NCBI GenBank assembly: GCA_020444045.1
Contig: JAHLLS010000001.1
Span: 434,001 to 498,000, forward strand
Length of the DNA stretch: 64,000 nt
Direction: 5' to 3'
Origin: Deltaproteobacteria bacterium
Lineage (GTDB): Bacteria; Desulfobacterota; Desulfobacteria; Desulfobacterales; UBA5852
Positions within the stretch are counted from its first letter, which is position 1. Each line of letters starts with the position of its first letter. This document shows positions 19,359-62,721 of the stretch, piece after piece. A model generated the notes under the pieces. That model saw only the letters and a program-made list of their open reading frames with translations, did no database searches and was not told the DNA's origin. A program made the position numbers and the translations under genes.

Positions 19359-19856
19359 TCAGGGTGCTTGAACAAATAGGGGCGGTTGGTCTTCAAGCGC
19401 ATAAAGCCGTTCAATCATAAAGGCGGCGTATTTTTCGCATTTGTCTTTCCAGACGCCCGATTCCAGAAACTTCTGATATTCGCCCGGTTTGGCAAAATCC
19501 ATTCCAATAAGCTCCCGGCAGGTGATGGCGCCAAAATGCCGATCGAATTCCGTCACGATGTTCGCCGAAAATGTGCGCACTGCGTGACGGGCCTGCTTGG
19601 CTCGCTCTTTATCCTTCATCGGACAGCGGTGACGCAATCCAAGGCAGACGGCCGCGGCCGACACCACCCCGCAGGGCGCATTCTGATAGCCCCCGATACC
19701 CCCCAAGAAAGGAATGCCGGCCCATAAAAAATCTTCATTTCCAAAGTCATAGGCCTCCCACATAACTTGCAGGATGGAGGGGCCTCAATGATACCCGCGG
19801 TACATCAATTGAAGAGCACGCCGTTTGGCCTCTTCCGATGAGAATTTCATTTCCAT
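19359..19856 (-). CDS. C_GCAxxG_C_C family redox protein, candidate selenoprotein (UGA = Sec24)
   Basis: Reading through one in-frame TGA (19787-19785) gives a continuous 165-residue protein from ATG 19856, which has GAGGAG 6 nt upstream. Without readthrough the N-terminal part would be an isolated 23-residue peptide and the rest would start at ATG 19763 with no ribosome-binding site. The C_GCAxxG_C_C family (PF09719) has a first conserved cysteine in a GxxCA-type helix before GGIGG...CG. Here the UGA sits exactly there (RGYH-U-GPSILQVMWEA), followed by IPFLGGIGGYQNAPCGVVSAAAVCLGLRHRC with the remaining cysteines and a later CRELIG. The family is a putative redox-active protein. Immediately after the UGA the mRNA can fold (GGCC..UCC with GGGAGGCC) with AAGUU in the loop, an imperfect SECIS candidate. 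The nonsense-mutation alternative is discussed in the findings. Confidence 0.6.
19744..19787 (-). promoter_or_regulatory. Candidate SECIS stem-loop after the UGA of the C_GCAxxG_C_C gene
   Basis: Directly downstream of UGA, GGCC (with a CC bulge) UCC pairs with GGGAGGCC, closing a roughly 16-nt region that includes AAGUU. It resembles a bacterial SECIS in position but its stem is imperfect and the apical loop is larger than usual, so it is weaker than the hairpin in the AhpD-like gene. Confidence 0.35.
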
Positions 19857-19939
19857 GCATTTCTCCTCTGCTGCCATACCGTCTCTCTTGTAAACACCGA
19901 ATGATATTTCGGTGCCCGTTTCACCTTGTGCCACGCGGC

Positions 19940-21118
19940 CTATTCCCCGGTTGGGAAAGTGCTATTCAGCCTTGCATTGACAATTTCTGAAATATCTTTG
20001 ACCTGGATGCGATCATCCATATTGTTGGTCTTGACGGCATCCGCCAGCATGACGGCACAGGAGGGGCAGCTGACTGCCAGGGTGTCGGCACCGGTGTCCA
20101 GGGCCTCGGCCGCGCGGATCCGGGCCGGCGATTCCGGCCCGTTACCGATGACGTCGGTGAAAAGGTTGCCACCGCCGCCGCCGCAGCAAAGGGCATCCCC
20201 CATGGATCGGTCCATCTCCTGGAGCTCGACCCCCGGCAGGCCCGCCAGGACCATTCGCGCAGCCCCGTACTCCCAGTTGTGGCGCCCAAGATAACATGGG
20301 TCGTGATAGGTCACCCGCATTGGGGGCTGCACTTCCGGGAAGGAAAGGCGATCCACGTGTGCCGCCACAATCTGGGTGTAATGGAAAACCTGGCAGTCGC
20401 TCCCCAGGGCCGGATAGTCGTTTTTGAGGGCGTTGAAGCCATGTGGAGACAACGCAATAATCTTTTTGACATTCAATTCCTGAAAATGCCGGCCATTCTC
20501 TTCGGCAAGCATCTGAAACAGAGCGCTTTCTCCCATGGCATTAGCCTCATTGCCGTCGGACACTTCTTTTTCGCCCAGAATGCCGAAAGAAATTCCCAAG
20601 TGCCTCAGGAGGGTTGCCACCGAGCGGGCCATCTCCTGCCCGCGGCTGTCGAAGGCACCCACGTCTCCCGGAAAAAACAGATAGTCATGGCCCGCAAACA
20701 GGTCCACGTCAGTATCGGCAGCCCAATCCGTTCGCTTCTTCCGGGATATACCGTAGGGATTGCCGTACAGCTGAAGCTTGGTCAGGCAGTCCCGCACGGC
20801 CGGGGGCACCTTGCCTTCCTCGACCAGTTTCTCCTTGCCGGCCGTAAAGGCCGCCAGCAATTCGGCTTTGATCTTGGGCAGGGCACACTGCTCCACGCAG
20901 TTGCGGCAGGCCGTGCAGGCAAACAGGATTTCCTGGAAGCGTCGGGAAGGCTCCAGTCGGTTTTCCAGCCAGGCCCGCAGAAGCCACATGCGCCCCCCCG
21001 GCGAATAGGTTTCGAAGCGGAAGGCCGCGTAGGCCGGGCAGTTGAAATCAACGTAATTGCCCGGCAGCTTACAGTAGCCGCAGCGAAAACACCGATGGAG
21101 AATCTCCGCGTGTCTCAT
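19940..21118 (-). CDS. (Fe-S)-binding oxidoreductase subunit with CCG domains (HdrD/GlpC-like)
   Basis: A 392-residue protein from ATG 21118 with GGAG upstream, its start overlapping the stop of the FAD subunit by 4 nt. The N terminus carries two 4Fe-4S cluster motifs (CFRCGYC... and CTACRNCVEQC). Two cysteine-rich CCG domains follow: one with YLFFPGDV..., the second with TYHDPCYLGRHN and LCCGGGGGNLF. CCG domains ligate non-cubane Fe-S clusters in heterodisulfide-reductase and glycolate/lactate/glycerol-phosphate dehydrogenase complexes. As last gene of a three-gene operon it probably passes electrons from the FAD subunit to the membrane or to thiol/quinone carriers. Confidence 0.88.
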   Translation of the reverse strand: MRHAEILHRCFRCGYCKLPGNYVDFNCPAYAAFRFETYSPGGRMWLLRAWLENRLEPSRRFQEILFACTACRNCVEQCALPKIKAELLAAFTAGKEKLVEEGKVPPAVRDCLTKLQLYGNPYGISRKKRTDWAADTDVDLFAGHDYLFFPGDVGAFDSRGQEMARSVATLLRHLGISFGILGEKEVSDGNEANAMGESALFQMLAEENGRHFQELNVKKIIALSPHGFNALKNDYPALGSDCQVFHYTQIVAAHVDRLSFPEVQPPMRVTYHDPCYLGRHNWEYGAARMVLAGLPGVELQEMDRSMGDALCCGGGGGNLFTDVIGNGPESPARIRAAEALDTGADTLAVSCPSCAVMLADAVKTNNMDDRIQVKDISEIVNARLNSTFPTGE

Positions 21119-22497
21119 CCGTTCTTCTCCCAGTTGCCGGGGTTCATGATGCCGTTCGGGTCCAGCACCGAACGGATGCGCCCCATTATGGCAAACATGG
21201 CCGGGTCCATCCGGTCGATGATCTTCTGCTGGGCCGGGGCCTCGGCTTTCCAGGGCACACCCCCCAGCGCCACCACCCGTTGGTTGGTTTCCTCCAGGGC
21301 CCGCTGGGCCCGGGCCACCTCGTCGGGGTCCGCCCGGTTGAAGGCATAGGCGTAAAAAAACATCATGCTGTGATTGACGCCCACCACCCGGCAGCCCATG
21401 GAGTAGGCCACCCCCACCCGTCCGGCGACGTCGAGGCCCAACGCGTAGGCCTCAGGGAAGAGCTCCACCGGCATGATGGCGCCGACGTATTCGAAGCCGC
21501 CCCCCTTGCGCACATCCGCAAAAACGGAAAGCTGCCTGGCGGGCACTTCCAGGAAGCGCTGCTTCATGGGGCCCGGCAGGGGCAGAAACCCGCCGGTCTT
21601 CTCTTCGATGTAATCCACCACCGACGCCCGGATCAGGTTGCGCTTCCAAATCAGCTCGTTTTTCGTCCGGGCGCCGTAGTTGACGTTGCAGTGCAGGAAA
21701 CCGTGCGCCCAGTCCGGCTTGGGCGACATCCAGGCGGTGACGTCTTCGGCCACCTGGGTGCCGGTGATCCGATAAAGGATGTCCGGCACAAGCGAAGGGT
21801 CCTCGCAAACGAAGACCCCCACGTCGTTCAGCGGGTAGGCGGGATAGAGCTTGATGGCCAGCTTGGTGATCACGCCGGTGGTCCCGGCCCACCCAAGAAA
21901 AAGCCCCGCCAGGTCCGGCAGGGGGGCTCGGGCGTTCCAGTAGGAGGACATAGCGCAGGATCCGATGCGGGCCACTTCGCCGGTGGGCAGGACCACTTCC
22001 AGCCCATTGAGCATGTCGGAGTGAAAGCCCCCCGCGGCCGACATGTGCCCGGATCCGTGGATGGAGACGTTGCCGCCGACGGTGGCCGCCGGCGGGGCGT
22101 CCGGGGCTGAGTGTTTGAGATCCGGACAGTGCTTCTTCAAATAGGCCTGCAGCATCCCCTGGGAGGTGCCCGCCTCCACCAGGGCGTAGCGGCTCATTTG
22201 GTTGACCTCGATGACGTGGTTCATGCGCTTCATGTCCAGCACGATGCCGCCCTTCAGGGCCCGCGACAGGCCGGAGAGCACCAGGCCTGCGCCCAGGGGC
22301 ACTACGGGTACACGATTTTCGTTGGCGGCCCGCAGGATCTTCTGAACCTCTTCGGTGCTGCCGGGCATGACCACGTAATCCGGCTCGCAGGGCGGCATGG
22401 TCCCGGGGTCCATGGCATAGATGTATTTCTCTTCGGGAGCATCGGACACGAACTCAGGCCCCACGATTTCCGCCAGCTGGTCATAGAACGGGTCCAT
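21115..22497 (-). CDS. FAD-binding oxidoreductase (GlcD / D-lactate dehydrogenase type)
   Basis: A 460-residue VAO-family flavoprotein from ATG 22497 with AAGGA upstream. The FAD-binding PCMH domain is seen at RVPVVPLGAGLVLSGLSRALKGG...VLDMKRMN and GGNVSIHGSGHMSAAGGFHSDM; the C-terminal FAD-oxidase_C part ends with ...NPGNWEKNG, the typical DPNGIMNPGK-like tail. Such enzymes oxidise 2-hydroxy acids (glycolate, D-lactate) or related alcohols. It is the middle gene of an Fe-S/FAD/Fe-S operon with 4-nt overlap to the third. Substrate not deducible. Confidence 0.88.
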   Translation of the reverse strand: MDPFYDQLAEIVGPEFVSDAPEEKYIYAMDPGTMPPCEPDYVVMPGSTEEVQKILRAANENRVPVVPLGAGLVLSGLSRALKGGIVLDMKRMNHVIEVNQMSRYALVEAGTSQGMLQAYLKKHCPDLKHSAPDAPPAATVGGNVSIHGSGHMSAAGGFHSDMLNGLEVVLPTGEVARIGSCAMSSYWNARAPLPDLAGLFLGWAGTTGVITKLAIKLYPAYPLNDVGVFVCEDPSLVPDILYRITGTQVAEDVTAWMSPKPDWAHGFLHCNVNYGARTKNELIWKRNLIRASVVDYIEEKTGGFLPLPGPMKQRFLEVPARQLSVFADVRKGGGFEYVGAIMPVELFPEAYALGLDVAGRVGVAYSMGCRVVGVNHSMMFFYAYAFNRADPDEVARAQRALEETNQRVVALGGVPWKAEAPAQQKIIDRMDPAMFAIMGRIRSVLDPNGIMNPGNWEKNG

Positions 22498-22501
22498 GGA
22501 T

Positions 22502-23521
22502 CTATCCTTTCAACGCTTCTTGGCACAGATCGCTCACGTGTATCGGGAACAATCCCTTTTCCGCCGCCGCTTCGCCCAGGGTCAGCATGCAGACCGGACA
22601 GTTGAAGGCACAAAAGACCGCCCCCGCGGCTTTCATATCGTCCAGGTTGCGTTTCTGGATGTCGTCGGCCAGGTCCTCCCGCTGATGCGCCCGCAAGACC
22701 TGCCCGCAGCAGAGCGCTGTTTCCCGGTCGTATTCGCGGTCCACGCGCTCCGCCCCGATTTTGGTAAAGATGGCGTCGAGCCAATGATCGGTTTCAGGAA
22801 TCAGACGGTTGGAACAGGGCCGTTGGTAGGCCACCTTGGCGTTCAGGGGGCTGATGCGGTCTTTCAGCACATCAAGCCTATCGGAAATGTATTCGAAGAC
22901 ATGCCTCGGCTTGAAGGGCACGTCGATGTTGAAGGCCGGGGCCAGGTGGCTGAACGCCGCGTAGCACTCGTCGTGAAAGCAGATCAGCTCCTCCACGCCG
23001 CTGTCCTTTAGATAACACTGCCAGATGTTGTCGATAACCCTGGGGAGCCGTTCGCGGATTACGGAATTCCTGGCGAAATGGAGCCACATGATGTTGCAGA
23101 AAACGTCGCTGCCCTCGATGATGGAAGGATTCTCATAGAGCGGTGCCCGGATGCTCCCGGTCAGCATGGGGAAGTAGCACATGTCGATCACGGGGGCTGT
23201 GACCCTCCCAGGCGTGAGGGTGCCCTTGGGTTGCATCATCCGGATCTGCTGCTTGGTGATCGGCGCCGGCGCCGGCAGGAGGCCCTTTTCTTCCTGGCGT
23301 TCGACGATCACGTAAAACGGATGGTTGCCGTTGGGGCAGTATTCCTCGCAGGCATAGCAGGTGGCACACTCCTTAAGGACCCGCGAATCCTCGCCCTTGT
23401 TGATCCTGGTCTTTTCGCGTTTGGCCTCCTTCAGATCGAAGGTCATGTACTGGCATTTCATAAGACAATCGCAGGTATTACAGGCCTGGCAGACGGCGGG
23501 ATCGAAGTTTATCGCAAACAC
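22502..23521 (-). CDS. (Fe-S)-binding protein, HdrD-like
   Basis: A 339-residue protein starting at GTG 23521; AGGAGGG lies 7 nt upstream, which settles this unusual start. Two cluster motifs open it: CQACNTCDCLMKCQY and CATCYACEEYCPNG. A CCG domain follows (CFHDECYAAFSHLAP ... YQRPCSNRL) and ALCCGQVLRAH near the C terminus, then CAFNCPVCMLTLGE. It is the first gene of the operon with the FAD subunit 4 bp downstream. The two Fe-S proteins flanking one flavin subunit resemble lactate/glycolate-type complexes and electron-confurcating Ldh/Etf systems, though no EtfAB is next door. Confidence 0.87.
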   Translation of the reverse strand: MFAINFDPAVCQACNTCDCLMKCQYMTFDLKEAKREKTRINKGEDSRVLKECATCYACEEYCPNGNHPFYVIVERQEEKGLLPAPAPITKQQIRMMQPKGTLTPGRVTAPVIDMCYFPMLTGSIRAPLYENPSIIEGSDVFCNIMWLHFARNSVIRERLPRVIDNIWQCYLKDSGVEELICFHDECYAAFSHLAPAFNIDVPFKPRHVFEYISDRLDVLKDRISPLNAKVAYQRPCSNRLIPETDHWLDAIFTKIGAERVDREYDRETALCCGQVLRAHQREDLADDIQKRNLDDMKAAGAVFCAFNCPVCMLTLGEAAAEKGLFPIHVSDLCQEALKG

Positions 23522-62148: not shown

Positions 62149-62721
62149 CTATTCACCGACCATCTGGGCCATCATTTCCTGAAACCCTTCCACCGGGGCG
62201 CCTAAAGCGTCCGCCATACGATCCATGTAGTTAAAGAGGGACGTCACGGCTACGGCTTCGAAGATTTCTTCTTCGCTGCAGCCATCGTTTTTAAGGCTTT
62301 TGATATCCTCTTCGGTCACTTTATACGCGTATCGAGTGGTTTTCTCCGCGAGGTGCAGCAGCTTTTTGGTTTTCTTGTCGATCAGGTCAGCGCCGTCCCC
62401 ATCGTCGAGGATGCTTTTAACCTGTTCCCGGGTGAATCCTTGCGCCATGACCATGGCGCTGTGGGCGTCGACTCAATAGGCGCAGGCGTTGATCTTGGAC
62501 ACATGGGCCGCAATCAGCTCCTTGGTGCTGCGGGGCAGGGCGTGGTCATCGATCATCAGCCGTTTGACATAGGTGACGATGGGCTCCAGCAGGTCCGGCC
62601 GGATGCTCTGGGCTACAAACACCTTCGGGACCGTCATAAACATCGATTCCAGGGCCGCGTAGGTCACCTTGAGCCGGCCGCGGGCCTCTTCCGGGGGTGT
62701 TGTTTTCAGATAGTAGCTCAT
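62149..62721 (-). CDS. AhpD-like carboxymuconolactone-decarboxylase-family protein, candidate selenoprotein (CxxU)
   Basis: Reading through TGA at 62475-62473 gives one 190-residue protein from ATG 62721, which has AAGGAG 8 nt upstream. The redox motif CxxC of AhpD (before HS of the conserved helix) is here CAYU: KINACAY-U-VDAHSAMVMAQGF, i.e. selenocysteine at position 83 with cysteine 80. The frame after the UGA continues to the natural end ADALGAPVEGFQEMMAQMVGE. AhpD-like selenoproteins with CxxU are known from deltaproteobacteria and ocean metagenomes. The mRNA right after UGA carries an excellent SECIS (see 62440-62475). The likely role is thiol/peroxide redox chemistry. Confidence 0.85.
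62440..62475 (-). promoter_or_regulatory. Bacterial SECIS element of the AhpD-like gene
   Basis: From the UGA 13 nt lead to the perfect hairpin GCGCCAU-GGUC-AUGGCGC (62459-62442). The 4-nt apical loop GGUC is the loop of the classical E. coli fdhF SECIS; the loop begins about 20 nt after the UGA, within the distance used by SelB. Confidence 0.8.

Follow-up and report, generated by a model that had tools for sequence, protein, structure and literature searches.

Selenoproteins with a HUGP domain

Selenocysteine (Sec)-containing members of the C-GCAxxG-C-C family (PF09719, TIGR01909) are already on record. A 2026 review describes two Sec forms of the family, forms 1 and 2 (MGD8741185.1 and WP_012158890.1), together with a HUGP/GUXX-star fusion selenoprotein, which it credits to Haft and Tolstoy 2025 (PMC13188914). 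The fusion, modelled as NF045501, carries Sec within the motif HUGP of its first domain and continues into a glutaredoxin-like GUXX-star domain that ends G-U-x-x-stop, giving two Sec residues; this second half is homologous to UXX-star selenoprotein family 1 (NF041114). For the RNA signal that directs Sec insertion, the Escherichia coli fdhF SECIS (strain MG1655) offers a reference: a hairpin immediately after the UGA codon, whose apical GU is flanked by a complementary pair, with the tetraloop GGUC at nucleotides 22–25 counted from the U of UGA.

We analysed a window of 64,000 nucleotides (contig JAHLLS010000001.1) from a Deltaproteobacteria bacterium of the order Desulfobacterales, in which a related gene occupies positions 19359..19856 of the minus strand. 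Translated with TGA as U, 19856..19359(-) is a single frame of 165 codons plus stop, interrupted by a lone internal UGA at codon 24 (19785..19787, minus strand; GYH-U-GPS) and closed by a UGA at codon 166. The residues around Sec24 read MEMKFSSEEAKRRALQLMYRGYH-U-GPSILQVMWEAYD. An initial annotation made from the DNA letters had described one in-frame UGA here, leaving the strand unnamed, and a start with a ribosome-binding site upstream of it. Both observations hold: a Shine–Dalgarno-like GGAG, read directly at 19863..19866 on the minus strand, lies 6 nt before the ATG at 19856, and orthologues share this start methionine. A scan with Rfam near the gene returned nothing relevant.

PF09719 (C_GCAxxG_C_C) matches residues 22–151 of the predicted protein (5.8e-13; 49.4 bits against a gathering threshold of 27). 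In an alignment of 33 sequences, the window UGA falls on the first invariant cysteine of this family, as the initial annotation had proposed. The other invariant positions (G53, C62, G63, C113 and C140, beside C/U24) are all present in the window protein, and the later family cysteines remain Cys at 62, 113 and 140, again as previously noted. The fusion model also matches, with profile positions 1–157 of 236 aligned to residues 1–157 across the motif GYHUGP (254.5 bits, E = 8.9e-76). It nevertheless stays below the curated cut-off of 325, and the protein ends at residue 165, so that it has the full-length HUGP domain with Sec at the same motif but one Sec only and no glutaredoxin-like domain. 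TIGR01909, named 'C-GCAxxG-C-C family (seleno)protein', gives 36.7 bits, likewise under its curated cut-off (47.4). We rejected the idea that codon 166, the terminal UGA, specifies a further Sec of the GUXX-star type; the downstream frame does not resemble GUXX-star, and close relatives have UAA or UAG at this point.

The window protein thus represents the HUGP domain of the fusion selenoprotein as a stand-alone form. HUGP proteins form a clade apart within the C-GCAxxG-C-C family, sharing with its other Sec subfamilies the replacement of the first Cys by Sec. Distant PF09719 members also switch between Sec and Cys at this residue (GLNUAES, GYMUAEA and GFHUSQV versus GFNCAQG and GFSCSQA). Since forms 1 and 2 and the fusion are listed in PMC13188914, the HUGP Sec site was known before this work. 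The label 'new selenoprotein' in the initial annotation must therefore be dropped: HUGP is part of the NF045501 name, and the TIGR01909 name itself allows for selenoproteins. What we add is the stand-alone HUGP protein below the curated cut-offs, which may coincide with form 1 or 2 of the review, a HUGP SECIS element with covariation, and a genus that holds both Sec and Cys versions in which the SECIS decays with the switch. Because the stand-alone form scores below the cut-offs of both NCBIfam models able to name it, gene finders are likely to misannotate it, either truncating it at codon 24 or beginning it after the Sec.

A second Sec subfamily of PF09719 was seen in six other sequences (L046, L047, L050, L053, L055 and L058; GLNUAES and GFNUAEI types, with TGA followed by GCGGA). 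It is found mostly in one family of the phylum, and the hairpin after its UGA differs.

Predicted structure and possible function

The sequence comparisons set out below strongly support the reading of codon 24 as Sec at the first conserved Cys of the family. In the predicted structure, which is all helical (pLDDT 89), helices begin at residues 24, 63, 113 and 140, so that a predicted helix start coincides with or adjoins each of Sec24, Cys62, Cys113 and Cys140. Such placement in the AlphaFold model is compatible with a reactive selenol backed by resolving thiols and equally with a metal site of four ligands, and we infer that HUGP is likely a small helical protein whose role is thiol/selenol redox chemistry or the holding of a metal site. 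Most likely the four residues would come together in a single redox or metal site, with Sec24 serving as the reactive residue or as a ligand. Electrons may pass to or from a partner, for example the glutaredoxin-like UXX-star protein or the Fe-S/FAD oxidoreductase encoded upstream. We hold this explanation as a whole, SECIS-directed Sec24 in a stand-alone HUGP protein with a presumed four-residue redox or metal site and electron partner, to be very probably correct.

On function, there is one alternative: the Sec and Cys residues may hold an Fe-S or other metal centre in place of a thiol/selenol redox pair, a reading that concerns function only and is compatible with Sec. A search with the family profile reached split-Soret cytochrome c (1h21) at E = 1.4e-4, the alignment running through the first two Cys of the family, and six family members match the NCBIfam model of that cytochrome, which has a 'novel iron centre' according to the title of Abreu et al. 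as cited in PMC5701242. The placement of all four Sec/Cys residues at predicted helix starts would also fit a metal centre. Against this, a fold search of the PDB found no match, 1h21 included, and the fusion with GUXX-star suggests thiol/selenol exchange. On balance we consider a metal centre possible but unlikely. It is more doubtful still that Sec24, Cys62, Cys113 and Cys140 jointly bind an Fe-S or metal centre as a natural Sec-ligated cluster related to the iron centre of split-Soret cytochrome c.

One relative (L076) is a true HUGP/GUXX-star fusion, with a glutaredoxin-like domain ending GGGUAV-stop and 393.6 bits against the cut-off of 325; in another (L073) the same C-terminal extension begins and then runs into masked bases. 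Most HUGP relatives found end before the GUXX-star domain, as the window protein does. Because the two domains are fused in some relatives, HUGP and UXX-star may be able to act together. Co-occurrence of separate genes was rejected as a functional link: genomes with and without HUGP have UXX-star genes at about the same rate, with no clear excess in the former, and one genome that has HUGP lacks them altogether.

The upstream oxidoreductase genes lie on the same strand as HUGP. Directly upstream is a GlcF/TfrB-like Fe-S protein with Fer4_8 and CCG domains (19940..21118, minus strand; Pfam and NCBIfam), preceded by a GlcD-like FAD-linked oxidase (21115..22497, minus strand; Pfam and NCBIfam) and by a CCG-domain, HdrB-like Fe-S protein (22502..23521, minus strand; Pfam), the first gene of the apparent operon. 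The order CCG/GlcD/GlcF/HUGP is the same in one relative (L010), partial in a second (L018) and found close by in a third (L067). GlcF is directly upstream of HUGP in L010 and L018 too; GlcD is kept with HUGP in both and lies near it in L067, and the HdrB-like gene is kept in L010 and L067. The Fe-S/FAD operon is common to only about 4 of 20 HUGP loci, the remainder having other neighbours. The gene itself is patchily distributed: four sampled congeners and one further member of the taxonomic family gave no hit.

Sec and Cys forms among orthologues

The first relatives recovered (L010–L018, 48–83% identity) all have TGA at codon 24. Genome surveys, covering 395 in the phylum and 390 in the class, then enlarged the set to 31 distinct sequences of HUGP type, counting the window's own. 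In these the codon is TGA in 28 and TGC in three, and no other codon was found there. The search for UGA-containing homologues that the initial annotation had called for therefore came out in its favour. The UGA thus stands where homologues have Cys, both in the three Cys orthologues and in the distant Cys members of the family, the pattern by which bacterial selenoproteins are recognized. The true terminal stop varies, being UGA in some orthologues and UAA or UAG in others.

The Cys orthologues (L087, L088 and L090; 60–62% identity) belong to one genus with four Sec forms from sampled sister species (L089, L091, L092 and L093); the Sec versions come from genomes G437, G497, G654 and G699 and the Cys versions from G444, G707 and G747. 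In the tree, the three Cys forms make one clade nested among the Sec forms of the genus, which points to a single Sec/Cys switch. This tree used rows as aligned, so that one sequence with a two-residue insertion (L018) has an artefactually long branch. All three genomes with a Cys form have retained selB. This genus amounts to a natural experiment, in which the SECIS decays after the change from Sec to Cys although SelB stays, and it provides a matched Sec/Cys pair for testing the role of selenium in an uncharacterised family.

These orthologues bear directly on whether the window gene is simply broken. A nonsense mutation of a Cys codon, the alternative named in the initial annotation, would make it a pseudogene or leave a product starting from the internal ATG at 19763; UGA is one base from TGC and TGT, and Cys orthologues do exist. 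Yet a further 27 distinct orthologues, with identities as low as about 49%, have the same UGA; apart from that codon the frame is intact, the residues and start upstream of the UGA are conserved, and the gene has a conserved, covarying SECIS in a genome with the Sec machinery. With the UGA so conserved, we reject this alternative as extremely unlikely.

A SECIS hairpin follows the UGA

Just after the UGA, all Sec forms can fold a bacterial SECIS hairpin, in the window UCCUGCA-[AGUUA]-UGUGGGA at 19756..19774 on the minus strand. It spans nucleotides 14–32 from the U of UGA, with the apical GU at 22–23. All seven stem pairs and the loop pair are intact in 28 of 28 Sec forms; in the Cys forms, 5–6 of the 7 pairs remain and the loop pair has become A-C or G-G. 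As in fdhF, the hairpin directly follows the UGA and its apical GU is flanked by a complementary pair, at a distance from the UGA that agrees to within one base. It differs from fdhF in stem sequence and in having a five-base loop, AGUUA, in place of the GGUC tetraloop, with AGUU at 21–24. The SECIS prediction that the initial annotation had asked for thus yields a conserved element, although not the one it had suggested. The outer GGCC/GGGAGGCC stem occurs in the window and few relatives, is not conserved and lies outside the conserved inner hairpin (19774–19756), and we discarded it as the SECIS.

Among the 20 sequences collected first, 15 have A-U as the loop pair that flanks the apical GU and five have G-C, never a mixture (Fisher p = 6e-5, kinship ignored). 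The pair requires three switches on the tree, a count that is also obtained from a properly aligned tree. Its two letters are the third positions of a Gln codon (CAA/CAG) and a Val codon (GTT/GTC); as both are synonymous, the link between them is not imposed by the protein. Synonymous-site variation is also lower in the four codons under the hairpin than elsewhere (ratio 0.35 versus 0.89, p = 0.003). Folding energy was rejected as evidence: over the 45 nt after the UGA it is ordinary relative to synonymous recodings (mean z = -0.33, not significant). The seven stem pairs are invariant among Sec forms, partly through protein conservation there. With folding energy unexceptional and the stem invariant, the case for the SECIS rests on conservation of the pattern, covariation of the loop pair, constraint at synonymous sites and decay of the hairpin in the Cys forms.

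The comparisons strongly support a model in which this hairpin recruits SelB with Sec-tRNA and Sec is inserted at HUGP position 24, the first conserved family cysteine. Reading of the UGA as Trp or another residue, by a non-standard code or a suppressor, would also keep the frame open across it but is the least likely explanation and practically negligible, as Cys is the sole alternative residue among orthologues and never Trp, UGA is an ordinary stop in several of them, and the SECIS follows the codon-24 UGA in every Sec form.

A simple scan of the whole window for UGA–hairpin combinations gave two sites, the HUGP gene and a UGA at 62475 in an AhpD-like gene, where shuffled windows gave about one each; at both real sites, open frames extend on either side of the UGA.

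Sec machinery and other selenoproteins of the genome

The genome encodes selA, selB, selC (tRNA-Sec) and selD, each above its family cut-off, and so the machinery that the initial annotation had proposed to look for is complete. That annotation had named as counter-evidence arbitrary codons at the UGA position with no conserved SECIS fold, or a genome lacking the Sec machinery. None of these turned up: orthologues have only UGA or TGC, the SECIS is conserved and the machinery is present. Its central interpretation, Sec at the first family Cys, stands, then, while its claim of novelty and its choice of SECIS stem do not. One selD gene (L027, G000:C67:76962-77888) has an in-frame TGA of its own; a second selD-like frame (L028), on contig C45, has none.

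The second selenoprotein that had been noted in the window, an AhpD-like protein, is real in outline. It lies at 62149..62721 on the minus strand (62721-62149(-); PF02627, TIGR01926), has the motif CAYU, and after its UGA at 62475 comes a hairpin whose loop is GGUC; the gene is treated here as a candidate.

On another contig, the genome also encodes a UXX-star family 1 protein (NF041114; L078, G000:C14:7360-7569, plus strand), a separate gene unlinked to HUGP here. The protein, MAESIRIYGKSGUPYTQ...GGTUGV, is glutaredoxin-like; two of its codons are UGA and are taken as Sec, one in GUPYT and one in GGTUGV-stop. A hairpin also stands after its C-terminal Sec UGA, and the loop, AGUUC, is of the same AGUU type as the HUGP loop.
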